In this document: piece after piece, positions 18,898 to 64,000 of the stretch | How positions within the stretch are numbered: position 1 is the stretch's first letter | Layout: each line of letters starts with the position of its first letter | NCBI RefSeq assembly: GCF_040954835.1 | Contig: NC_090714.1 | Span: 3,026,501-3,090,500 of the forward strand | Length of the DNA: 64,000 bases | Source of the DNA: Lepisosteus oculatus | Taxonomy: Eukaryota; Chordata; Actinopteri; Semionotiformes; Lepisosteidae | Direction: 5' to 3' | The notes under the pieces: generated by a model | Databases searched by the model: none | Told to the model about the DNA's origin: nothing | The model's input: only the letters and a program-made list of their open reading frames with translations | Position numbers and translations under genes: made by a program

Positions 18898-19927
18898 GTG
18901 AGTGACGAAAAGTGAGTCGTTTTTGGTTGGAGAAAAAAAAGATTAATTGCAATACTTCATGTTTCTGAACTTTAATAACAATGAAATGTGTTTACTCTAG
19001 ACCAGGTCTCATATGACCATGATAGATAATTGTAGTAATGGAGTGGTAAATCGAAAATACATCCTTGTCGTGTGTTAAATATTGTTGAACAGCTTGCTCC
19101 TATGTATAAATCGTTTAACGCATTACAACACAACTGGGTCCTACTCTAAAGCTTTGCTTTTCGTTCAAGCCTTCGAATTAGCTTGGCATAATCCTCAAAC
19201 ATTATTGTTCATTCTATTCACTTAAGAATATCCCACAGACCAACGTTCTTCCTCTATATTGCACTGGTTAAAAAAACTGTGATTAATAGCTGCAAAAGAA
19301 AGTTATAAGATACTTCTAGAAATACTTGTTGTGGTTCTTATTTTGTGAGCATTTGGAATATCACAGAATACGTAGTTTGTAGCGCTGTTTGTATTTTAAT
19401 TTCATTGTCACTCCAGACCCTTTTTGAAAGAACCTGAGTTACTAGACTTACTGGGCGTCCAAAGGTCGAGCTAGTAAGGACCAAACGGAGAATGAAAATC
19501 TGTTGTTTATATTAATTATTATTTTATATTTAGCGTCTTTCATAGTGTGAACTCATAGTTTTAATGAGTTTAAAACTATTTGCACAAGCCATAAACAAGG
19601 CACACTTGAGTGTGCTGTGCAAGACTATAATGTGTGTATTTAGAAATTAATAGAGAGGTTAATACGTTAGAGTTAGATTACTCCCATTGGATTTAAAGTA
19701 ATGTTACTCAAAATGATTGAATAAATTGCTCATTGATAATCACCGCTGTTCCAGAGAACATTCAACTGGTGTATACTGAGGATCAAACCAGGTTATGGCT
19801 TATAATGTCACAAAGAAAATGGCATTTTGTAGCACTGTCTTTTTATTGAATTGACATGACAGGTAGAGCTGCAGGTCGATTCTTAGGGTCCGCAGGCGAT
19901 GTGATTTGAAAACGTTCTTTCCGACAG
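18898..19927 (+). other. KNOP1: KNOP1 first intron (inferred)
   Basis: It starts at GTGAGT after the presumed leader exon and ends at the acceptor of exon copy A. No coding exon was seen inside. Confidence 0.5.
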
Positions 19928-20125
19928 ATGGTGCTGCTGGAGGGAGAGAACCCAGAAGCAGTGGAGAAGAGGAGGAGGAAGAAGAAAAAGAAAGATGCGA
20001 AAGAGAAGAGCAGTGTGGCAGAAGAGGGGGGAGAGAGAGACTGTGGACAGAGGGGGCAGGACAGAGAACAGAGAAATGTCTGGGACAAGCAGGGCATGAA
20101 TGGGGCAGAAGCCACGGAGCTCCAG
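19928..20125 (+). CDS. KNOP1: KNOP1 repeated first coding exon, copy A
   Basis: The acceptor is CTTTCCGACAG, less pyrimidine-rich than in copies B and C, and the donor is GTAAAA. It is 66 codons, phase 0 to phase 0, starting exactly at ATG (MVLLEGENPEAVEK) and ending in ATELQ. Together with intron sequence it forms a 737-bp unit repeated directly downstream. If a leader exon ending at 18897 is spliced here, this ATG is the first base of the exon and the likely start codon. Confidence 0.75.
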
Positions 20126-23100
20126 GTAAAATCAGAATGCATTAAAATGTTTGACATCAACAGGGGGTCTACGGTGAAAGTCATAGACTAGTAGAATGTG
20201 CCCACTGGAAGCTATACAAGCTGTGTCTTGAGTATCCGTGATGTAGGACTTTGCATTAGGCCGCAGACGCTGTCTTGTGACATTTCTTGCTCTCTGAGCC
20301 TTAGTTGCCACATGTCCGCCCAGCAAACCCCCCACATATTCAATCACGTCTGGGGGGCAGGACGTCCGTGGTACAAGACCATCATTCTCAACTCGCAAGG
20401 AAGCTGTTGTTCCAGTGACTGGTAACAACAGCAAAGCTGGGGGACAGCACTAAGCCCATCATTCTGCACATGTGCATCACCACACTCCCTGACGTCCATC
20501 AGGGCGGTGAGCACAAAGCTTTGATTCACCGCGAATGAGCCTGGTTCTGTTGCTCACAAGCCCACCTGATGCTGCTGATTCGATTAACGCTGAGCGGCAC
20601 TGGGTCTCTGTGGGGCTGTCGTGGGTCTGCAGACTATCTGATTTGAAAACATTCTTTCTTACAGATGGTGCTGCTGGAGGGAGAGAACCCAGAAGCAGTG
20701 GAGAAGAGGAGGAGGAAGAAGAAAAAGAAAGATGCGAAAGAGAAGAGCAGTGTGGCAGAAGAGGGGGGAGAGAGGGACTGTGGACAGACGGGGCAGGACA
20801 GAGAACAGAGAAATGTCTGGGGCAAGCAGGGCATGAATGGGGCAGAAGCCACGGAGCTCCAGGTAAAATCAGAATGCATTAAAATGTTTGACATCAACAG
20901 GGGGGTCTATGGTGAAAGTCATAGACTAGTAGAATGTGCCCACTGGAAGCTATACAAGCTGTGTCTTGAGTATCCGTGATGTAGGACTTTGCATCAGGCC
21001 GCAGACGCTGTCTTGTGACATTTCTTGCTCTCTGAGCCTTAGTTGCCACATGTCCGCCCAGCAAACCCCCCACATATTCAATCACGTCTGGGCGGCAGGA
21101 CGTCCGTGGTACAAGACCATCATTCTCAACTCGCAAGGAAGCCGTTGTTCCAGTGACTGGTAACAACAGCAAAGCTGGGGGACAGCACTAAGCCCATCAT
21201 TCTGCACATGTGCATCACCACACTCCCTGACGTCCATCAGGGCGGTGAGCACAAAGCTTTGATTCACCGCGAATGAGCCTGGTTCTGTTGCTCACAAGCC
21301 CACCTGATGCTGCTGATTCGATTAACGCTGAGCGGCACTGGGTCTCTGTGGGGCTGTCGTGGGTCTGCAGACTATCTGATTTGAAAACATTCTTTCTTAC
21401 AGATGGTGCTGCTGGAGGGAGAGAACCCAGAAGCAGTGGAGAAGAGGAGGAGGAGGAAGAAGAAAAAGAAAGATGCGAAAGAGAAGAGCAGTGTGGCAGA
21501 AGAGGGGGGAGAGAGGGACTGTGGACAGACGGGGCAGGGCAGAGAACAGGGAAATGTCTGGGGCAAGCAGGGCATGAACGGGGCAGAAGTCACGGAGCTC
21601 CAGGCCATGGAGCTGGGGGGAGACACAGAAACGTGGCAGAAGAAGAAGAAAAAGAAAAAGAAAGAAAAGAAGCCGTCCGTGGGCAGAGAGGTCAAGGAGG
21701 GAGAAACCAGCGTGCAGCCTGAGGAAGAGGAGACAAGAAAGACGGAGAAAAAGAGAAAAGAAAAGCTGAACCTCGTGGAAGAGCCGCCGGCTGCTCAGGA
21801 GAGCGAAACGCCCAGGAGGAAGAAGAAAAAGAGGAAACGGGAGAGTTCAGAGCAGGGGGCGACGGCTGGAGAGGAGCAGAACTGGGGGATAACTCCAGGA
21901 GAGGAGGCGGCGCAGATGGGGAAGAAAAAGAAAAAAGTCCGGGAAGCCGAGGCACGGGAGCAGGAGGAAGAGCGAGAGAAACGGGCGCATGCAGCTTCGA
22001 GTGGAGCGAGGAAGAGGAAGAAGGGCGAGGAAGGCCCCCAGGAGAGCAGGGAAGAGAAGAGAAAAAAGAAGAGGGAGAAGGAGGTGGAGCAGGAAAGGGA
22101 AAATAAGGAGAGAAGGCGGGGAGACTCTGGACCGAGCTCCCCGAAGACGAAGAGGAAAGCAGGTCAAGAGCTCGCAGCCGTGAAGAAGACGAAGAGAAAA
22201 AAGAAACTTAAAACAGAGGAAGAGCTTTCAGGGGGCGAGGTGAGAACAACTGCTTGTCAGTTCTCAGTTTGCAGCATCTCAGTGTTATAAAAGTTTAAAC
22301 TGGGGATTTTCGGGGGTTTCTAAAAATGTGAGTTTTTTGCAGCTTTATTCCTATTAAGTAAATGGGGAACTAAATGTAAATGTTTTATTCATAAGCCCTG
22401 TAGGTTTGACAGACATTGGGGGTTTTTGGAGCAAACGAGGGTGTTGAGATTTGTAATGGAGCTCTAGATTCTTTGTTATCGATGACCGTCTTGAACCTTT
22501 AGCTGTGGGGTTCAAAGTTTTTAAGCATGGAAAGGAGTCAGAGACAAACTGTTTGCAAATTATAGCAAAGACTAGGTTAGTGCTGGAAGTGGTGCTGGAA
22601 ACCAGTGCTCCAGGATGCTGACAGGAAGCACTGGGCTGTAGGCCAGGGGTCCTGGAGGCTGACACTCCTGCAGGTCTGTGATGCAGCCCAGCTGAACAGT
22701 TGAACCCATTAACGGACTGAATTTGAGCTCTTTCATTGCGTTTTTCAGCTCTTGCGTAGTGTTTAACATGTGTCTTCTAACTGTTGCATTTTTATAAGTA
22801 ACATTAAACCGCAAACTTTTGATAAGAAAAAAGAGTTTCAAATATCATGCAATCAAGCAAACTGTTTATTCTGTTAAAGGGGAACTGCAGTCCCAATTTC
22901 ACAGTCAAAAAAATTAATTCATTTAAGGTACAGAAAAAAAATTCAAATGAAGCACAAAATCATGAACTTTGTGAGAGTATCGTTAGCCTCCATGTTGTCT
23001 CAATTTCGCATTCGAGTTCCCATGAATATGTAATGTGATTTATGAGTGAGTAAATACAGATTGTACAGCAGAAATGCTCCAACGTGAACTACATACAGAG

Positions 23101-26100: not shown

Positions 26101-29100
26101 AAATGTTCAGGACTGTTAGCCTAGAATGTACTTAATAAGAAACAAACTTATTCTAAACTGTTAAAAGGCAAGATCTGACAAGAATTTTATGTTTGGCACT
26201 CTTCTTCTAGAATCTACATAGTCCATAAAGAAAATCTACAGTTGTATGCAAATGTTTGGGCACCCTTGGTCAAATTGCATGTGCCACTGAATCTCTCACT
26301 GAAAAGAAGTTAATACAACCTCTGCAAGGGTGCAAACATAAACATGACATATTTCTGCACATTTTAATACACAAGTACTATTTTTGTGCTGAATGTAACA
26401 ACTTGAAAAGTGAAAACAGTGAATATGGCATGTACAAAAGTTTGGGCAGTTGATTCAGACTTCAAGGCCTCAAAATGTGATTGACTCGTTAGGCCTTAAA
26501 TTAAGCCAGCTGAAGACAGTTCCAGAGTTGAATACTCTGACCCTTCTAACCTCTCAACAACCACAGGCTTCTCCTTTGGCAGCTTCCAAACATTTCTGGT
26601 AGCCAGCTAAGAGTCTTTTTGTTCCTGTTTTAGGATTTTTTCCCACTCTTCCTTCCAGAACTCTTTTACCTCAGAAATATCCTTATTTAAGCCTTGCTCC
26701 CAAAAAAATATGAATGAATCAACGGGGTGCCCAAACCTTTGCACATGCCACATTCACTATTTTTTTCCAATCTGTTAAATTGAGCAAATAAATAGTAATT
26801 GTGCATTAAAATGTGCAGAAATAGTAACTAAATAAGAGGTTTCTTAGAAAGTGTGATGATTTCTAGTATGATAAAGGAATCTAACATGTACAGAAGCCTA
26901 GAACCTTTGTAATTAATACATTTCCATGCATCTTGTATCCTGAAGGATCTCAGAGCAGTTCACATGTAGGTTTTCCACCACTGAAGCACAGACCACACCT
27001 GGGGAACATGCAGCAGCCCCTCTAAGCAGCAGATCAGGTGGAGAAGGGAGAAGTTGCTTCACCGGTCAGATTGAAAGAGACTTAATCAGTTGAATTAAAT
27101 GGGAATGTGGGAGGCCAGATATGACTTTAGCCTGGACACCAGAACTAAAAAACAAATCTTAAAAACAGGGCTATGAGATTTTTAATAAGCTTGGTTTAAC
27201 GTCCTATCTGAGAGGAGAGCAGCTCCTAGAACACAGAGTCCCCAGTCTCCATGCTGGGAGCATTAAACTGCGTACTCTGGACCACAAAGAAGAGCGCCAC
27301 CTACTGGTCCACCTAGTGTTTCCCATGTTTCCCCACTGCAGCTTGAAGGTCCCTGCTTCAGATTCAAACTTTGTATCTAAATTGACTTTTCCTCTATTAC
27401 TCCTGTCATGAAAGCATCTCCCACAGAAGTCTTACTTGCCTTCAAGGAGGCCGCCAAAGCTGACCTCACTCTTTGTGGTTTTTCATTTGCTTCTCTATTT
27501 GAAACAGTGTTTTCTTTTGCATTTTTGCGACAGACTGCGATAGAAAATGCCGTCTGTGCTCTAAGCAAGCGCACTAAGACATGTTTGTTTTAGGAGAGAC
27601 GGCAAGCTCTGCAGAATGCAATTGATGAAGAGTCACGCCCTCAAGCCACAGAGAAGACAAAGGTCAGTGTTCGCCCTCTCCTAACAGCTACACAGCTCCT
27701 TGCACCTCAGCGCTGCGCACATTCGTGTCACTCTAACGTCTGCGGCCGGGGCTCCCGAATTGGCCATATACAATTTCTTGCCTTAGGAATTTGTCTTTTC
27801 GCATACTCCAGTGTGCTCTCCATGAGAGACAGACAGGGAGAAAAGCTGGGGGTCAGAGCGCAGGGTCTGCCATTTATACAGCGCCCCTGGAGCAGTTGGG
27901 GTTAAGGGCCTTGCTCAGGGGCCCAACGGAGTAGTAGGATTCCTCTGCCGACCGCGGGATTTGAACCGGCAACCTTCCAGCCACAGTGCCGCTGCTGCCC
28001 CCCTCCTACAGCAGGGATGACTAAATATCACATACTCCAGCCCCTCCCAGTGCTGCTCCTGCTCCCCCTCCCAGTGCTGCTCCTTCTCCCAGTGCTGCTC
28101 CTTCTCCCCCTCCCAGTGCTGCTCCCCCTCCCAGTGCTGCTCCCGCTCCCAGTGCTCATCCGTCTCCTGAGCTCTTTGTGCCTCTAACACATGCGTTCCC
28201 GGGTGAGCTGAGGGGTCTGTGCAGTGCAGCCTGACTGTGCTGTCCCGCTCTGCGGAGCTCTTGGCAATCCGATTCCCATGAAACCTGCAGTCAGCTGCTC
28301 TCCAGTTTTGCTTTGCACTTTGCGGTAATGCAGGGAAGTCAGTATCTGTCGTGCAGGGAGCACTTCTGCCCACTGATGCCCTTTGCTGGTGGTGTCTTTC
28401 CCTCGTTGTTCCATACTGACATCATCTCACACACCATCCCTCTTGAAACATAAGAGCAGGGCGCTGTCCTGGTCACTGAAGCTCCTGCTAAAAGCACCTC
28501 TACAATCACCCCTCTTTTTGTAATCACTGAGGTCTCCTCTTGCTAGATAGTCTTAATTGTAGGTAACCTGTCCTGTTCAGAAGTTTCATACGTGACCTTA
28601 AAGATGCCGGGGTGCTATTTTCTTAATGAGCAAGTCACTCCTGTGTGTGGAAGCCCTTGCTTTCAATATTTGGTGTCTGTCATTTACACAGGTGTTTACA
28701 TTTTTTGTCCACCGCCTATAGTAGATGAAAAATTAAAACTGAAGCACAGCTGCTTAAACTTATGATTTGGGTAGCTGCCTGGATGTACTGGTAATGGATA
28801 AAAATATCTATTAAGATTCTACGTATGTGTCTTTTTTGTTTCAGAGCAAGGGGGTGGGTTTCGGACAGTGGAGCACCACCTGCTTCGAGAGTGAAGACCA
28901 GCAGAAGAAGTTTCTCCGGCTGATGGGCGGGTTCAAGAAGTCCAGCCCATCACTGGCCCCGGTAGGCGGAGCCGGCCCACACCGGCCAATCATGGCTCTG
29001 GGCCGGGACGAGGCGCGGCAGCTAAACCAGAGGTTGCTGGGACAGTTTGAGCGCGCTCACAGTCGTTGGCTCAATCCTCAGCAGACAGGAGCAGGGCTGG

Positions 29101-55540: not shown

Positions 55541-58500
55541 CTGTGAGGAATAAAGAACAGGCCGATTCGCACGCGTCTGGGAAGAACACAAGGAAATTTT
55601 ATGACAAGAACAGGCCACTCAGCGCATCACAACTCTCCCATGACTCTAGTGGGCAGGTGAAAGACTCCAGCCATTCCAAAACAATTTCAAAGCGTGGATA
55701 CTGGGAGGATCCCAGCACGTTAGACACCATGTAGTGGCCAAGCTGATTAATTCATACATGAGCTATTCTCCGATTTCCCAAACTTGTCTTCTCATTCTGG
55801 AACATCGGCACCAACTTGCAGTTGGCACCAACTCAATTTCAGTCACGTAACATTTCACAAAACTGTTTTTCTGGTTTTGTCAGGGTATTTTGCTCTATTT
55901 ATCAAACACGTTCTGTCATGAAGTAGAAGTGATGTGAACTAAAAGTGGAAGATTATATGATTTGTCAGTTTTCACTGTGCTGGAGTAGAACTGGGAGTAA
56001 TAGATTAAATAAGAGATGGTTGGATCCCAAAACCACAGCAGCAGTTTCTGTGTTTTCATCTACAGTATATTTCTTCAAGTGGTGCATCTATGAAGCAGTG
56101 ATATAGCCTCCTGGAGGTCTGAATGGTCTTTCATTTAATCTATGCTAAATAACTGCTTAAACATAATTCATTTTTTCATCCAGTCGCTCTATAAAACGTG
56201 CAGGAGATTGGCTCTGTAGTAAAAGGAGAACACTGCACTCCTGTGTGCATGAGTGCATGCGCAAGCGTGTGTGGGCGTGAGCGTGTAAGCATGAGTGCGT
56301 TTGCACAACTGTGTGCATGTGTGAGCCCATGTAACTGTGTGCACGTGTGCAAGTGTGAGCGCATGTAACTGTGTGCACGTGTGCAAGCGAGCGTGTGTGA
56401 GCGTGTGTAACTGTGCAAGTGTGAGCATGTGTAACTGTGTGCATGTGAGCGTGTGTAGCTGTTTGCACGTGTGCAATCGAGTGTGTGTGAGCGTGTGTAA
56501 CTGTGTGCACGTGTGCAAGCGAGCGTGTGTGAGCGTGTGTAACTGTGCAAGTGTGAGCATGTGTAACTGTGTGCATGTGAGCGTGTGTAGCTGTTTGCAC
56601 GTGTGCAATCGAGTGTGTGTGAGCGTGTGTAACTGTGTGCACGTGTGCAAGCGAGCGTGTGTGAGCGTGTGTAACTGTGCAAGTGTGAGCGTGTGTAGCT
56701 GTGTGCATGTGAGCGTGTGTAGCTGTTTGCACGTCTACAATCGAGTGTGTGCGAGCGTGTGTAACCGTGTGCATGTGTGCAAGCGTGAGAGTATGTGTGC
56801 ATGAGGAGGCCCCGTCCCGCCGGGCTCACCGAGGTCCGCGTGTCAGCGAAGCCGTGCCTCTGGCTCAGGCTCCACAGGTTGATGGCCAGCTGGTTGAGGC
56901 GGTTGTTCCGCAGGTCCGCGTGAGCCACCAGGCTGCTGAAGAGGGAGAAGGCCAGCGAGCTCTGCCTGCGCAGGGTCTGAAACACACACACGCGCGGGGA
57001 GCCGTGACACGCACATGCCTAGCACAGGCCGTAAACAAAAATCTCAAGCAGCTACAATTTCCTCAAGGCCTAAAAACAGGACACAGTTCTGGGAAAGGGG
57101 ACATAAAGGACTCATTTTCCACATATCCCCAGGAGAGGAGGAATAGCCCTCACTGCTTTCTCTACTTCCCAGGAGTAGAAGGAAGAGGAACGTCACTCTG
57201 CAGAGCCAAGAGCATCTTCTGGGGAGGTATTCTTATTCTGACTCTGGGGGAGGGGACAAACACCCCCTGTTTGCTGGTATTCTTCAGTGGCTAGGCCTTT
57301 GAACATCACGGGACGACCAGATCATTCTCCATTAAAAGGTGACAATTACTTGTAGGCCCTGAACACGCCAATTTCTTTGTCCTTGAATATTAATATTTAA
57401 AAACACAACTTTGATTTCATTAGCACACATGGAAATATTTGTGCATGTTCAAGATGTTGAATAAGAGTGCTGGGCTGATGGGTGTGGAAAGGTCTGTGAT
57501 AAAGCATCGTTAAGAGACCATAAGAACATAAGAAAGGCTGAAAATGAGAATATCTGGGGTTTAGTTAATTGATTAAGAGGTTCTCATCCAGCCATGAGTC
57601 CAGGGCTTCAACAGCATGGCTGGGTAGCTTGACCTCTTTGCATAAAGACGTTGCATAGAGAAACCCCTGTTCTGTTTTAAAAGCAGCCAATCAATCCAGA
57701 TGGGTGGCCTGGGATTTCTCCCAGCGGATGTGTGTGTTTGGCACCAGGCTCACCTCCTCTCTGCCCAGGGTCTTCAGGTGGTCCAGGACCTGGCCGATCA
57801 GAGTCTCGCACAGCTTGTTGATCTCGGCCACAAACTTGGGGTCCCCCCCATACAGCGTCTCGTTGGAGTCCACTGCCCGGGGGAGGGGAGTAAAGAGCCA
57901 CACAGTTAAAGAGGCGTACAATTTCCCAAACACCACACACAGGGGTAAGAGCTCATCGTCTCAAACGAGAGGTATGACATCACCTTTAACTCAATCTCCC
58001 TGGCGTCATCACTGGCTGCCAGCGGCCAGACTTGAGTCAAATTAAGAGTCACACAGCCCCTGTCTGACCTTCGTCTCGTTTCCCTTTACGTCTGCATGGA
58101 GTTCGAATGAAAATATACTAGCTGCGTTTTTCAGAGACAGAGTTCCGGGTATTAAAAGCAAAAAAAGGGGGACGTGCGAAATCTGGACATCTCAGGGGTG
58201 GAGGGGCAACCCCCAAACCATCAAGCCTCGTAGTGAGGAGGTCACACTGCGTCTGAACCCCAAGACCAGCTCAAACCCGAGGCCCCTCCCCTGATACAGA
58301 TGGAAGACGGAGCGCATAGCTGAAGATCTTGCCCCCCGCGCTGGGGCTACTGTAAGAAGCGTCACAAAGCCCCAATACCTTTGGGAACGCAGTAGAGGTA
58401 GTTCTCCTGGCTGAGCGCGGCCAGCAGGTGTAAGGCGCTGATGTACAATCTGACCTTGGCGTCGCTGTTGTCCTCCCAGGTGTAGTCCTGGATGATGTTG

Positions 58501-61500
58501 AGCAGGCCGCGCACCAGGTACAGCACGCCCTGCTCCGGGTGGTCCTGCCCACACAGACAAGAGGGGGGGGCACGCTCAATTTCTAATGGCAGGAACAGGC
58601 CACCGCAGAGCTCGGATCGCATGAGGAGCCTTGAGCGATACTCCACCTTAAAACGGCCGTGAACCTTCTCTCGCATAAACTTACTGGCGCAGAAACTCAG
58701 AGGAGCCAAGACGGGCAACTGTTCTTTGGGAAACGGGTTATGTAAATTCCAGTGAAACTGCATATCCTTTAAACTTCCCCCTATATTTCTATATACTTCT
58801 TGTCTGTTCTCCCTGTGTTCGCATGGGTTTTCCCTATGGGTGGGTGCTGTGGTGTCCTCCCACAGTCCAAAGACATGCCGGTAGGATATTGGCGGCAGAG
58901 TAAACTGGCCCTGGTGCGAGTGTGTGTCTGTGATTGTTTGGCGTCCTGGTCAGGCTGCTTGCCAGAACAGGCTCCGACTCCCCCCCGTGACCCCAAATTG
59001 GATGAAGGGGTTAGAAAATGGATGGATGGACTTGAATTTCACGTATTCTTCCTCAGCAGATGGGGCTTGCACACCACAGGAAACCCGAAATCATTTGCGG
59101 TTCTGAATCGGCTTTCATTGGAGTCACCGTTTTTCACTACAAGTAAATCGAGGAGAAGAAACTGCCGTCGCCTCATCCAGCGGGCTTGTTGTGTTTCCCA
59201 GTGGAGCAAAACGCCGTCACGTTGAATGAAAAGTCCACTGAGATACAGGCTCGGCTTTGGAACTTGGAAAGATCATCTCCTCACGCCAGGCTGACAGCCG
59301 GATCGCCTGTCCGGTCTCCCTACGGCACACCCTGGGCCGGAGCAGACGGGCGGGGGTGGGGGAGGCACTCACCGGGACCACCAGCAGTGTGGACAGGAAG
59401 TTGTTGATGAACTCCAGGAGGAAACCTTCGGAGGACCTCAGCTTCCCGTCCACGCTGAGCGAGCGCGGCACCTCGGGCAGCAGGCTGACGGAGGCCTTCA
59501 GGAAGGCATCGGCTGCTCCAGGGAGGGGGGACAGGAGAGACGAGACGAGGGGGTGAGCCTGCTGTAAGACGCGGCTCAGGACCGCACCTTCACAAGGTGG
59601 TCACTCCTATACTGGCCACAGTGCCTGCTGATCTGCTGCTTGAGGGACTTCCCTGGTCAGTGGTCAGCACCCTTCACACTGACCCTTTCACTCTCTGTAC
59701 ACCATCCTGCAGAGCTCCCACAGTGCCCAGAAAGAAATAATATTAATGAACAATTCCTTACACTTATATAGTGCTTTTCTGGACTCTCCACTCAAAGCGC
59801 TTTACAGATAAAGGGGACCCCCCCCCCCCATCACCACCAGTGTGCAGCCCCACCTGGATGATGTGACGGCAGCCATAGTGCACCTGTACACTCTCCACAC
59901 CAGCTATCAGCTATCAGTGGGGAGGAGAGCAGAGTAATGAAGCAGGTCATAGATGGGGCTTACTAGGAGGCCATGATTGGTAAAGTCCTGGGGGAAATTT
60001 GGCCAGGACACTGGGGTTACACCCCTACTCTTTTCGAGAAACGCCCTAGGAGTTTTAATGACCACAGAGTCAGGACCCCGATTTTACGTCTTCGCTTTCT
60101 ACATTTGGCAAGGGGTCAAAAATCTTTCATCCTATTGCTTCTTTGTACTAATCCGTGAATACCAATTCACACATCTCGTTGTGTCGAATTTTCATAAAAA
60201 GAACATTTATAAAAAGAGCAATGGGTGCACTTCCTAAAGCTATACAAAATGTTAACCCGTGGTCCTGTGTCGCTCTCCTGCGTTACCCAGTGCGCTCTAC
60301 TTACCCTGGGAAAGACACTGGTTGGCCAGCGCCACCTGTCCGGAGAGCAGGTAGAGGTTGAGCCGACTGAAGATGCTGGTGAGGGAAGGGATGGTGATGA
60401 AGCTGTAGGCAGCACAGGCCTGCGGAGACAAGCAGCCACTGACTGTCAGCATGGAGCCTCGGCCCAGTTAAAAAAGCAGTGGCAATTTCCTGGCACAAAC
60501 AACACGTCTGATCTAAATTAAACTAACTTCGGTCCTGCAAACCAGCTGAGCTGCACATGCACAAATGAATGCAGAAACGCTCTTTTTTTTCAGCCCGTTC
60601 CGCGGCGAGACCCCAGAAGCCACCCCACGGCCCAGCCGTACGCGGCACCAACCCTGACGAAGGCTGCAGTCTTGCGGGAGTGGTTCCCTCTCATCACGCG
60701 GCGCGTCTCCATGGCCAGCTGGTTCACCGTCTGCGGACAGAGGACAACGCCGTCACATGCGCACAGAGGTGTACACGCACGCACAGAGGTGTACACGCAC
60801 GCACAGAGGTGTACACGCACGCACTGCTACACGCACGCTCTCTCTGTACCCATGGAAGCACAGGCAGAAAAAATACTAAGACGGGATTTTCAAATCTGCA
60901 TGAACAGAGCTTTACACTAATTAATACAAAGGTCTCGTCACAAGGACTTTTTACAATTTTGCATCTTCTAAAAATGCTAAATACGAGCAAATTACTTGAG
61001 CTCAGAGGCTCAACATGCTATAGCTTATCCCATCTTAATTCTGGTGGCATTAAGAGGACTGAAACATGTAGTATTCCACATATTCCCACAACAGGCACAG
61101 CTGGTGGACATGCCGGGAAAATTGCAGTGGCACGTCTGCAGAGGCCTGTGCCCTTAACCTGTGCTGTCCCCTAGAACAGACCCAGACATACATAAAATCA
61201 GATGAGTCAGAAGTGGGATGTCTGCATTGAACAACACAAAACTGTCTCCCCACCCGATCATGTATGAGGCCCCCCCCCCTCAGTGTCGCCCCCTGCTGGA
61301 CTCACGTGGATGAGCTGCACCATCACGGGCTCCAGGTTACAGAAGGTGGCGCGGGCCTCCACACAGAAGCTCAGCTGCTGCTCGAAGTCCCGGCCAAACG
61401 ACACCTGGCAGAGAGACCCAGGCATGGGGTGAGCGGGGGACAGTGCAGGCGAAGGCGCAGAGCCAGTGAGATGCACTGGCTGCCCAGAAAACAGGAACGC

Positions 61501-64000
61501 ACCATTCGAATGAAGCCATTGATCAGCTGGGCCAGGGACCTCTTCTCATCATCCAGCGTCAGGGCACTGCAGGGGCACAGAGAGAGTGATCAGAGCCCTG
61601 GGGCACAGAGAGAGTGATCAGTGCCCTGGGGCACTGCAGGGGCACAGAGAGAGTGATCAGAGCCCTGGGGCACTGCAGGGGCACAGAGAGAGTGATCAGA
61701 GCCCTGGGGCACTGCAGGGTCACAGAGAGAGTGATCAGTGCCCTGGGGCACTGCAGGGGCACAGAGAGAGTGATCAGAGCCCTGGGGCACAGAGAGAGTG
61801 ATCAGAGCCCTGGGGCACTGCAGGGGCACAGAGAGAGTGATCAGTGCCCTGGGGCACTGCAGAGGCACAGATGGGGAGATAAGAGCCCTGAGGGACTGCA
61901 GAGGCACAGATAGGGAGATAAGAGCCTTGCACCAGACCTCAATGAACTAGTGAATTCTGAGGACTGCAGGGCCTCAGGGCTCTTATCTCAACCAGACTGG
62001 GTTGAAACGGCCAACATTAAAAATCATTCTTCACACCCTGCGACAGTGCAGTCCTTGAGAATCACAGCCCTCCAGTTACAGGACACTTTAAACTACGACC
62101 TGCACACAAATCTACAAGCAGTATTGAAGCTGTTCATCTCAACAGCTAAGTAAAAGCTTCAAGGAACATTTAATCCCAATATTTGTTTTAATCTTAGGGT
62201 TAATTAAAGTTGTCTAAGGTCTAATCATTACTTACAAACTTCTCGGATGTTTTGCAATCCAGAGACCCTTGTATTTGTGCTCTACTTCATCCACTGTTGC
62301 GCCAACAGCAGACAATCAAGAAAACTAATCCTGATGCCAAACAGCTCCGTTTCTTTAAACGAACCCGTGAGTCTATTTGCAAAAGTTCAAAGCCGAGCTC
62401 CCAGAGTGCCAGGATACTCCCCAGCAAACATGAGAATGACAGAGAAACCAGAACCTAGCAGCTCGACTTTTGGACAAATAAAACATGCAGTAAGTCTGCA
62501 TATGGACGGCTGAAAGGATTTGGCACTTACTTGACGGAGTCGTGCATGGTCTTGCAGACGTGCAGGAGGGCGTTCAGGATGACCGGGTCGCGGGTGGGCT
62601 CCTGCTGGCACCTGTGGGCACAGACAGGCTGGCACAGGCTTGTGAGGCCCTATCACGCACACCAGGCTGGCAAGGAGCGAGCCAGACGCATAGACCAAGA
62701 GGCCAGGTTGGAGTTGGAGCAGACAGGAGAGAGGCAGGAGAGGCAGAAGGCTCAGGAAGTCGAGGGAGAGGAATCATGAGGAATGAGAGGAAAGGAGAAG
62801 ACGGAGCGGTTTTTGTGCTGTGCAGAACCTACATTTAATTCATTTCTCAACATGTGAGATTATCCGTTTCTTGTTTTCCTTATAAAGGTCTCGTTTTCCT
62901 TATAAGTCATATATGTTAATTCCATGTTTTAAAGACAGTTCATCATGCACACAGCACAGGAAACACTCAGACATCTTGATACATCAATCCCACTGATGGG
63001 CTGTTACTCGTACTCTGAGGGATGTGTCCAAGTTTAAAATTTCAGTTCAGGGTAAAAATGCCGACTCTGTATTGTTGATAAAAGAGCTGTCATGCAGAAA
63101 TGGTGATTAATATGGGGCCATTGCAGTGGAATGGGTTCATGAAGCTCATGCACAAACTCAACATGAAAAGACTGCTTACAAACCAGAAGGTAAAATAATT
63201 TAATTTCAGTCAGGTATGGGACCCCTAGAGACAAATCTCAGTAGCACCAAAGACACAAAGTTGTAGATATATAAGACACCAAAGACAGAGGGTGAGATAT
63301 GCAAGATACATGGAGTGAAAGGAAATTAAAATTGTTAAGTAAAGGAAGGGAAAGAGATGTAATAAGGAAATGAAAAGATGAGAAAAATGTATTGAAAGTA
63401 AAGATGTCCTCCAAAGTTGGGGGGGATGGAGGGAAAAAAAAGACGGTTCATCATTTACTCTCGTCCTGCTTGGGCATCAGTGAAACCCACCCGTTACTTG
63501 AGATGGGAATCCGAGCGCGGTTTCGGACAGGAAACACGAGGGAGGACAGGCGGGAGAGGGATACAGCGACGAGAAAGGACGGGAAACGATAAGCAGGGGA
63601 ATCGAACTGAACTGCTAGATAAACGGACAGGCACAGACCTGATGAAGACCTCCATGATGGAACGGCACACCTCCACCCTCACGCTGTCCTTCTGAAACAT
63701 GTCCAGGAAGGGCAGGAACCTCTCCTGTGGAAAGAGACAGCCTTCTCACCGTCCTGTCCCACCTGCCCCTACCACAGTACCCCCCAACCCCTACCTTCTG
63801 TAAAACCAGGCTTGTCCATCTTCCATTTTCATGCTCCTCCCATTTCCAGCTCCCCCAATAACTATCGTGCAAGCAGATCTCATCCAGCTTAAGCCTTCAT
63901 GGCAAAATCCAGCCACCCATACCTCCTTCTCAGCTCTCCCACCAACATCCGGGTCAACTCACCATGGAGAACAGCACAGAGAAGTCCTGGAAGTATGTCA
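55442..64000 (-). CDS. VPS35L: VPS35L gene, C-terminal part (Retriever complex subunit), 12 exons, cut by right edge
   Basis: VPS35L (formerly C16orf62) is the large scaffold of Retriever (with VPS26C and VPS29). With SNX17 and the CCC complex, Retriever recycles membrane cargo such as integrins from endosomes. The exons encode about 410 C-terminal residues of a protein of roughly 960. This is the alpha-helical solenoid that in VPS35 family proteins binds VPS29. Anchoring blocks, in order, are [123 protein letters not shown] and [11 protein letters not shown] then stop. All exon phases join without error. The gene continues beyond 64,000. Confidence 0.97.
56220..56806. repeat. GT-rich array with 132-bp higher-order period in VPS35L intron
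   Basis: The basic units are GTGTGTGAGC and GTGTGTAACT, arranged in a higher-order unit of 132 bp. The marker GTGCAAGC is at 56381, 56513 and 56645. Because 132 is a multiple of three and the repeat lacks stops, several long open frames on both strands are artefacts of the repeat. Alternating purine-pyrimidine content could favour Z-DNA. Confidence 0.93.
56830..56976 (-). CDS. VPS35L: VPS35L exon ([17 protein letters not shown])
   Basis: The acceptor is TGTGTTTCAG and the donor is GTGAGC. It has 49 codons, [20 protein letters not shown] then [20 protein letters not shown] to DTRTS. Its donor is only about 25 bp from the GT-rich array. Confidence 0.96.
57754..57872 (-). CDS. VPS35L: VPS35L exon ([20 protein letters not shown])
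   Basis: The acceptor is CCCGGGCAG and the donor is GTGAGC. It has two bases plus 39 codons, [20 protein letters not shown] then [19 protein letters not shown]. Confidence 0.96.
58379..58544 (-). CDS. VPS35L: VPS35L exon ([15 protein letters not shown])
   Basis: The acceptor is TGTGTGGGCAG and the donor is GTATTG. It has 55 codons plus one base, from [11 protein letters not shown] through [18 protein letters not shown] to YLYCVPK. Confidence 0.96.
58795..59032 (+). mobile_element. Same SINE family, headless copy in VPS35L intron
   Basis: Body motifs TCCTCCCACAGTCCAAAGAC and the tail AGAAAATGGATGGATGG are present; the tRNA-like head is absent. Confidence 0.75.
59373..59512 (-). CDS. VPS35L: VPS35L exon ([17 protein letters not shown])
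   Basis: The acceptor is CCTGGAGCAG and the donor is GTGAGTGCC. It has two bases plus 46 codons, [20 protein letters not shown] then [18 protein letters not shown] to VVP. Confidence 0.96.
59735..60075 (-). mobile_element. 5S-SINE (SINE3-like) 3' part in VPS35L intron
   Basis: Matches the body and tail of the element at 2045-2626 in reverse orientation, including the GCGCTTT tail motif and the GGTGTAACCCCAGTGTCCTG-like body. The 5S head is missing. Confidence 0.85.
60305..60419 (-). CDS. VPS35L: VPS35L exon ([19 protein letters not shown])
   Basis: The acceptor is GTCTCCGCAG and the donor is GTAAGT. It has 38 codons plus one base, [20 protein letters not shown] then the conserved [18 protein letters not shown]. 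Confidence 0.96.
60653..60730 (-). CDS. VPS35L: VPS35L exon ([20 protein letters not shown])
   Basis: The acceptor is CTGTCCGCAG and the donor is GTTGGT (weak). It has 26 codons, phase 0 at both ends, [20 protein letters not shown] then TAAFVR. Confidence 0.93.
60768..60838. repeat. Small 18-bp tandem repeat in VPS35L intron
   Basis: GTGTACACGCACGCACAGAG is repeated about three times with a shorter last copy. It lies about 40 bp upstream of the exon at 60730. Confidence 0.85.
61306..61404 (-). CDS. VPS35L: VPS35L exon ([11 protein letters not shown])
   Basis: The acceptor is TCTCTGCCAG and the donor is GTGAGT. It has 33 codons, [20 protein letters not shown] then [13 protein letters not shown]. 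Confidence 0.96.
61503..61566 (-). CDS. VPS35L: VPS35L exon whose acceptor is copied in a minisatellite
   Basis: It is 64 nt and encodes [20 protein letters not shown] then M at phase 0, with donor GTGCGT. Its acceptor CTGTGCCCCTGCAG is the exact seed of the 39-bp tandem repeat that fills the upstream intron up to about 61,945. Confidence 0.95.
61562..61945 (-). repeat. 39-bp minisatellite in VPS35L intron, carrying copies of a splice acceptor
   Basis: The unit in + orientation begins GTGCCCTGGGGCACTGCAGG and continues GGCACAGAGAGAGTGATCA. There are about eight units, some with a 12-bp deletion, plus two degenerate units that end GGGGAGATAAGAG. On the minus strand each full unit reads CTCTCTCTGTGCCCCTGCAG, identical to the acceptor of exon 61566-61503. 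Confidence 0.95.
62531..62611 (-). CDS. VPS35L: VPS35L exon ([19 protein letters not shown])
   Basis: The acceptor is GTGCCCACAG and the donor is GTAAGT. It is 81 nt, [20 protein letters not shown] then MHDSV plus two bases. Confidence 0.95.
63639..63724 (-). CDS. VPS35L: VPS35L exon ([17 protein letters not shown])
   Basis: The acceptor is CTTTCCACAG and the donor is GTCTGT. It has 28 codons plus two bases, [20 protein letters not shown] then RSIMEVFI. Confidence 0.95.
63963..64000 (-). CDS. VPS35L: VPS35L exon, partial at window edge
   Basis: It encodes [12 protein letters not shown], ends at phase 0 and is followed by donor GTGAGT. The 5' part lies outside the window. Confidence 0.93.

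Follow-up and report, generated by a model that had tools for sequence, protein, structure and literature searches.

How does splicing settle on one 3' splice site when a tandem repeat has placed nine close copies of it in the same intron, and do those copies influence the output of the gene? The question is raised by a 64,000-nucleotide (nt) stretch of Lepisosteus oculatus DNA (RefSeq assembly GCF_040954835.1, contig NC_090714.1, positions 3,026,501 to 3,090,500; hereafter the window), in which a minus-strand gene, VPS35L, carries a minisatellite across an intron-exon boundary. A preliminary description of this DNA had stated that a minisatellite multiplied a VPS35L 3' splice site and that the repeat begins within the exon boundary. 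Both statements hold: the array comprises ten units, its exon boundary is set by protein homology, and 5 exon bases lie inside the array. We consider it likely that this is a passive minisatellite, of the kind called a mirage in amphioxus, which is compatible with correct splicing and with at most leaky use of the decoy acceptors. That reading builds on the anatomy of the array, the near-identity of its modules and the frames and stops of its decoys, all of which are direct observations.

Taken in order, the exons of the gene align with the VPS35L chain of PDB 8p0v, which we take to be the human protein. The peptide read across the intron-exon boundary aligns without gaps to residues 597-676 of 8p0v chain O (E = 7.3e-42). 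Because this homology runs gapless across the boundary, the true acceptor AG is fixed at 61568-61567 and the exon begins at 61566. The 5' partner of the array-bearing intron is the donor CAA/GTAAGT at 62531/62530. The 64-nt exon is preceded by a long intron of 964 nt and followed by a short one of 98 nt, and later VPS35L exons are present within the window, 3' of it.

Tandem Repeats Finder (TRF), segmentation and unit comparison delimit ten tandem units that begin at 61927, continue on the minus strand into the exon and take in the true acceptor together with the first 5 exon bases (Table 1). In transcript order these are D1 and D2 (39 bp, diverged), U1 (39 bp), U2 (28 bp), U3 to U6 (39 bp), U7 (28 bp) and U8. 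In the seven full intronic units TGCAG ends at 61896, 61857, 61818, 61751, 61712, 61673 and 61634, and in 7/7 of them a second AG, with longer open frames, lies 8 nt further on. The earlier count of about seven decoys is right for these TGCAG copies and rises to nine modules when the CCCCAG acceptors of the 28-bp units are included. The 28-bp units lack 11 bp located between the two TGCCCC direct repeats that flank TGCAG, and because the deleted bases sit between direct repeats, the loss points to slippage as its probable cause. Inner units U1-U7 differ from one another by 0-2 letters, and D1 and D2 differ from U1-U7 by 6-10. One letter alternates between A and T, with the A type at U1, U4 and U7; if three A's are distributed over eight units, 2/56 arrangements show the same trimer-like spacing. 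An inverted copy of the unit adjoins the array upstream, and the 122-nt stretch holding it with D1 and D2 has a predicted fold of -60.1 kcal/mol (z -7.1). Rfam and tRNA scans gave no match at the array.

Table 1. Coordinates of the VPS35L exons and introns, the array and its units in the window
Feature	Coordinates	Strand	Basis or remark
VPS35L exon	63724-63639	-	homology to 8p0v VPS35L residues 567-594
Three VPS35L exons	62611-61306	-	homology to 8p0v chain O residues 597-676
VPS35L exon 5' of the array	62531..62611	-	sequence and homology
Array-bearing intron, 964 nt; final 361 nt are tandem units	61567..62530	-	sequence
Inverted copy of array unit, adjoining the array upstream	61964..61989	+	predicted pairing with D1/D2 in pre-mRNA
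Minisatellite: seven full 39-bp units, two 28-bp units and a last unit entering the exon	61562..61927	-	TRF, segmentation, unit comparison
D1 and D2, distal diverged 39-bp units; acceptors end 61896, 61857; branch-like motif CTTAT only	61850..61927	-	
U1; decoy acceptor ends 61818; 23-mer same as true site	61811..61849	-	
U2, 28 bp; branch motif at -21; CCCCAG/GG ends 61782; without TGCAG	61783..61810	-	
U3; decoy acceptor ends 61751; 23-mer same as true site	61744..61782	-	
U4; decoy acceptor ends 61712; one C-to-A change in tract	61705..61743	-	
U5; decoy acceptor ends 61673; 23-mer same as true site	61666..61704	-	
U6; decoy acceptor ends 61634; 23-mer same as true site	61627..61665	-	
U7, 28 bp; CCCCAG/GG acceptor ends 61598; without TGCAG	61599..61626	-	
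U8, true module: CTGAT at -24, tract, TGCAG 61571-61567, then 5 exon bases	61562..61598	-	
64-nt VPS35L exon; purine-rich stretch after true site	61503..61566	-	sequence and homology
3' flanking intron, short, 98 nt	61405..61502	-	sequence; both neighbouring exons backed by homology
VPS35L exon	60419-60305	-	homology to 8p0v residues 703-740
VPS35L exon	59512-59373	-	homology to 8p0v residues 742-787
VPS35L exon	57872-57754	-	homology to 8p0v residues 844-882

The unit repeats a whole set of acceptor signals. U1-U8 carry CTGAT, which matches the branch-point consensus CURAY and lies 24 nt before the cut in the 39-bp type and 21 nt before it in the 28-bp type, followed by a pyrimidine tract and YAG; D1 and D2 have only CTTAT, which fits the weaker YUNAY and not CURAY. 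YAG with a tract is present in 9/9 intronic units, and CURAY at -21 or -24 in seven of them (U1-U7). Over all 23 scored bases (-20 to +3), U1, U3, U5 and U6 are the same as the true site, and U4 has one change. The tract CTCTCTCTGTGCCCCTGCAG, assigned in the preliminary description to each full unit, is exact in 4/7; U4 has one change in it and the two distal units have diverged. The same description let the true site share the TGCCCC that lies downstream of the decoys, and this is incorrect, the true site having TGCCCT. An approximate acceptor matrix based on general consensus frequencies, which serves for ranking and no more, gives 10.6 for the true site, 11.5 for U2 and U7, 8.9 for D1 and D2, and 8.2 for U4.

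Sites combining a sufficient score with CURAY number 22 on the minus strand of the 64 kb, and 7/22, the true site included, lie in the array. This gives a density of 7 such AGs per 400 nt, and no other part of the window, on either strand, exceeds 2. A search of the window for the unit's 24-base core, with up to 3 mismatches allowed, found it 8 times, always in the array and counting the true unit; its maximum across 100 shuffles was 0. Read on both strands, 18 randomly drawn 10-kb stretches of this genome held 27 score-plus-CURAY sites and no cluster of at least three. With a laxer threshold and no demand for a branch motif, one cluster of seven appeared among the random stretches (L023).

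When the genome (1.2 billion bases, 813 contigs) was searched for the array, there was one full match among the best-scored candidates, together with four weak matches to other minisatellites; two of these fell in one array on C31, leaving three arrays that, having been found by similarity, are a biased sample. The C31 array (L002 1312-1800, 35-bp unit) has 10 minus-strand sites scoring at least 8 with CURAY and the C14 array (L004 1516-2313, 32-bp unit) has 16 within the array, whereas no array AG of the C4 array (L005) combines branch motif, tract and YAG. Uniqueness of the acceptor-like module was rejected, since the C31 and C14 minisatellites are also runs of branch motif, tract and YAG. 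Acceptor-like minisatellites are not unique in this genome, and it is the exon boundary that sets the VPS35L array apart; at the C31 array no exon was recognised in a listing of open reading frames (ORFs), made for L002 only.

Other minisatellites lie in the window. One, at 28041-28156 on the plus strand, is intronic, with periods of 18-42 and six CCCAG sites in pyrimidine-rich context (scores 7.1-13.8); 0/6 have CURAY at -18 to -44, and the array also clusters under the laxer threshold without the branch-motif demand. It is on the same strand as a gene with a SMAP-domain exon starting near 28845 (Pfam PF15477), presumably KNOP1. Another, at 56318-56787, has a 132-bp higher-order period (97% match) and starts about 43 nt past the donor of exon 56935-56830, which we take to be a likely VPS35L exon.

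Tandem repeats are prone to misassembly, and the array might have been collapsed, expanded or mis-joined, so that the locus would have another number of decoys or a single copy. A mirage in the amphioxus draft is described as aberrantly assembled in a supplement legend, the part of that source available (PMC3087553). The VPS35L array, however, has a readable order of variants (the A/T letter, the single change in U4, the deletions of two units and the divergence of two edge units), and the single full match among the best-scored genome candidates argues in the same direction. We regard an assembly artefact as very unlikely.

What would follow if a decoy were used? The donor at 62531 was joined to each array AG upstream of the true site and then to the next exon, and the frame was read. 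A premature stop resulted for 17/17 upstream array AGs, lying 46-338 nt before the next junction, with at least one later junction ahead. By the usual rule, a stop upstream of a later junction makes the transcript a substrate of nonsense-mediated decay (NMD). When the edge AG 61926 is left out, 3/16 array AGs keep the frame yet stop inside the array. The frame reported earlier, N-A-P-G and then an early TGA, is read as N-A-P-G-(H/L)-stop in 6/7 TGCAG decoys, and does not extend to the most distal one, which reads 18 codons before its stop. The second AGs (8 nt after TGCAG) have longer frames and also stop. Skipping of the 64-nt exon, whose length is not divisible by 3, also changes the frame and leads to a stop in the exon that follows.

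The stops are less telling than they appear. In a control, 41/48 ordinary AGs located 30-330 nt upstream of three other VPS35L exons (62611, 60419 and 57872, the carried codon base of the last being an arbitrary placeholder) gave a stop too; the four exons run gave 53/62, and exon 61404 was excluded because its upstream range overlaps the array. Thus the premature stop upstream of an exon junction, by which alternative splicing coupled to NMD (AS-NMD) is recognised, was found for all 17 array AGs and for most of the controls. Nor are the 17 AGs independent, since array copies spaced at 39 bp have a common frame. The poison property therefore needs no special explanation. That every copy is a poison acceptor, as first described, is accurate as to the stops; as a mark of design or selection it was rejected, since ordinary AGs behave alike.

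These frames bear on a repeat-number rheostat, in which the array would vary in length, appreciable decoy use would feed NMD, each extra unit would be one more NMD-bound acceptor, and copy number would set the level of VPS35L message, perhaps under selection. Such dose control would be consistent with nine decoys equal or near-equal to the true site in core strength, and with stops that have a later junction ahead in a gene whose later exons are in the window. The usual occurrence of stops at control AGs speaks against it. Heterozygous Vps35l mice are reported as normal in the available portion of PMC8750115, so mild VPS35L loss may escape selection. On balance, control of dose by repeat number seems unlikely.

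The preliminary description had the cell picking the last of many equal acceptors; this is true of the core signals, but the contexts are unequal, both in architecture and in exon sequence. Exon definition favours the splice sites closest across the exon, and for exons that have a long intron on the 5' side and a short one on the 3' side ('LS', cut-off 250 nt) acceptors of similar strength mimic exon definition, according to the accessible sections of PMC9225289. With introns of 964 and 98 nt the VPS35L exon is of the LS class, and the choice is expected to shift to the last module. The same sections state that of acceptors at most 9 nt apart the upstream one is particularly strongly preferred (PMC9225289), so TGCAG is expected to beat the second AG inside a unit. 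The sequence that follows each site leans the same way. In the 40 nt after the site, CTCT is absent for the true site and occurs 2-4 times for each of the nine decoys, and GAA, GGA, AGA or GAT occurs 6 times for the true site and 0-1 times for the decoys, these being crude trinucleotide counts and not a validated enhancer set. Architecture and enhancer-like exon sequence would both lean to the true site, and hence away from dose control.

The crudeness of those counts is one of several points that weigh against a choice of the last acceptor. As far as the available text of PMC9225289 goes, 3' splice-site events overall favour the upstream site, as dose control would have it, a reduced upstream preference is described for long/long exons, and the data are human acceptor pairs and not arrays of ten. 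U2 and U7 slightly outscore the true site on our matrix (11.5 vs 10.6). Under the rule of the first AG after the branch point, every module would have its own winning AG, so that core signals do not protect the true site.

The CTCT-rich sequence may also be read in another way. Polypyrimidine-tract binding (PTB) proteins prefer motifs of this type, and a CUCUCU run could bind them and repress the whole 64-nt exon, skipping of which would give the frameshift and the stop in the next exon described above. The 2-4 CTCT per 40 nt that follow all nine decoys would suit such a platform. The 64-nt exon nevertheless encodes a conserved VPS35L stretch, so high skipping would be harmful, and we hold repression through PTB to be very improbable.

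RNA structure could in principle distinguish the true site, if hairpins masked the decoy TGCAG and left the true site open. Six TGCAG decoys have a near-complement right after them and the true site does not; isolated 26-mers of D2, U1 and U3-U6 are predicted to fold at -8.9 or -13.1 kcal/mol, compared to -5.5 kcal/mol for the true site; and a strong hairpin over D1 is predicted from the inverted distal unit. However, local folding is no stronger than at the true site for D1 (-4.9) or for the U2 and U7 CCCAG sites (-1.8), and the contrast is lost or reversed once neighbouring units are folded too. With a folding window of 40, the predicted probability of being unpaired is 0.203 for the true AG vs 0.209-0.476 for D1-U6; with one of 80 it is 0.019 vs 0.131-0.254, and with 120 and 240 the true AG is within the decoy range. 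The strong predicted distal hairpin (z -7.1) would involve D1/D2 only. Masking is unsupported as a mechanism, and such a role for structure appears extremely improbable.

We propose instead that slippage or unequal exchange copied the last ~32 intronic and the first 5 exonic bases in tandem, so that nine modules of branch point, tract and AG now precede the true one, seven with CURAY and two distal ones with a weaker motif. Splicing would normally take the exon-proximal module, because the 64-nt exon is short and stands between a long and a short intron, in that order, and because purine-rich, enhancer-like sequence follows only the last module while the decoys precede another pyrimidine tract. 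If a decoy were occasionally used, the product would be an NMD substrate, and VPS35L message would fall slightly. Repeat turnover would have homogenised the true site with its decoys, and this could alone explain why the decoys look functional. A selected regulatory role for the array is not needed on this account. Repeat-number tuning is an unlikely reading for which we found no support, and nothing here favours it over passive tolerance.

The closest known structures are the mirage minisatellites of amphioxus. According to the parts of the source available (PMC3087553), these occur in Adh3 and globin genes as minisatellite-like tandem duplications over an intron/exon boundary; many of their units contain splice signals, haplotypes differ in length, and the core is homogenised while the edges are exempt. 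Troponin C and PGBD5 are added to the list in the available part of PMC3902484. Within the same portions of both reports, splicing is described as undisturbed by mirages with splice signals (PMC3087553, PMC3902484), which counts against appreciable decoy use. The VPS35L array likewise spans an exon-intron boundary and repeats splice signals in many units. Like the BflGb6 mirage, as far as its description was accessible, it has a homogeneous core (U1-U7, 0-2 letters) and a diverged edge (D1/D2, 6-10), and the duplicated part is the 3' end of the intron. Unlike the amphioxus cases it is in a vertebrate, its unit is of 39 bp (150-160 bp in BflGb6 and 10-72 bp in Adh3, in the text available), it includes only 5 exon bases, and the unit is a whole module of branch point, tract and AG. 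For the amphioxus mirages, those same parts report length instability together with normal splicing. On this comparison it looks like a vertebrate case of the mirage structure already described in amphioxus.

To judge by its title, a report by Turri et al. in 1995 reportedly concerned a human minisatellite with multiple splice donor sites, which we take to be that of IFI6/6-16. There, as here, a splice site is multiplied in the transcript, but the sites are donors there and acceptors here. Repeated 5' splice sites of the IFI6 type were not found at VPS35L, where the repeated signals are acceptors and the upstream donor lies about 600 nt outside the array, the unit itself not having been scanned with a donor matrix. 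Poison exons and AS-NMD offer a further parallel in that decoy use would add a premature stop, and differ in that extra intronic sequence in VPS35L usually leads to a stop. Human segmental-duplication genes also show expansion of minisatellites at boundaries, with units averaging 30 bp, effects on splicing and 27 intron modifications, in the accessible part of PMC2812944; those are recent paralogues with RNA support, while VPS35L is a conserved gene and the case for it comes from DNA sequence. Among the papers listed by our searches of open-licence PMC we recognised no vertebrate array of repeated acceptors, the splice-site type of the human boundary repeats not being established in the portion of PMC2812944 available.

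Other features of the window are listed for completeness. At 2033-2400 on the plus strand, a 5S rRNA match (59.7 bits) is followed by a tail resembling a short interspersed element (SINE), presumably a 5S-derived SINE. Near a lysine-rich ORF, three similar translated stretches (minus-strand ORFs 19800-20141, 20477-20878 and 21215-21589) lie within 19800-21794, which suggests a tandem triplication.

The VPS35L locus looks like a functional splice site that has been homogenised along with its own decoys. For the study of splice-site choice the array offers a natural test case, with ten near-identical acceptors, one of which makes a conserved protein. Use of the last acceptor alone would mean that exon context makes the choice. 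Use of several would turn repeat number into a direct handle on the level of VPS35L, a conserved gene of endosomal recycling; mouse embryos do not survive its complete loss, according to the available part of PMC8750115. Should dose control prove true, the locus would measure the preference of a vertebrate spliceosome for the exon-proximal one of up to ten equal acceptors.

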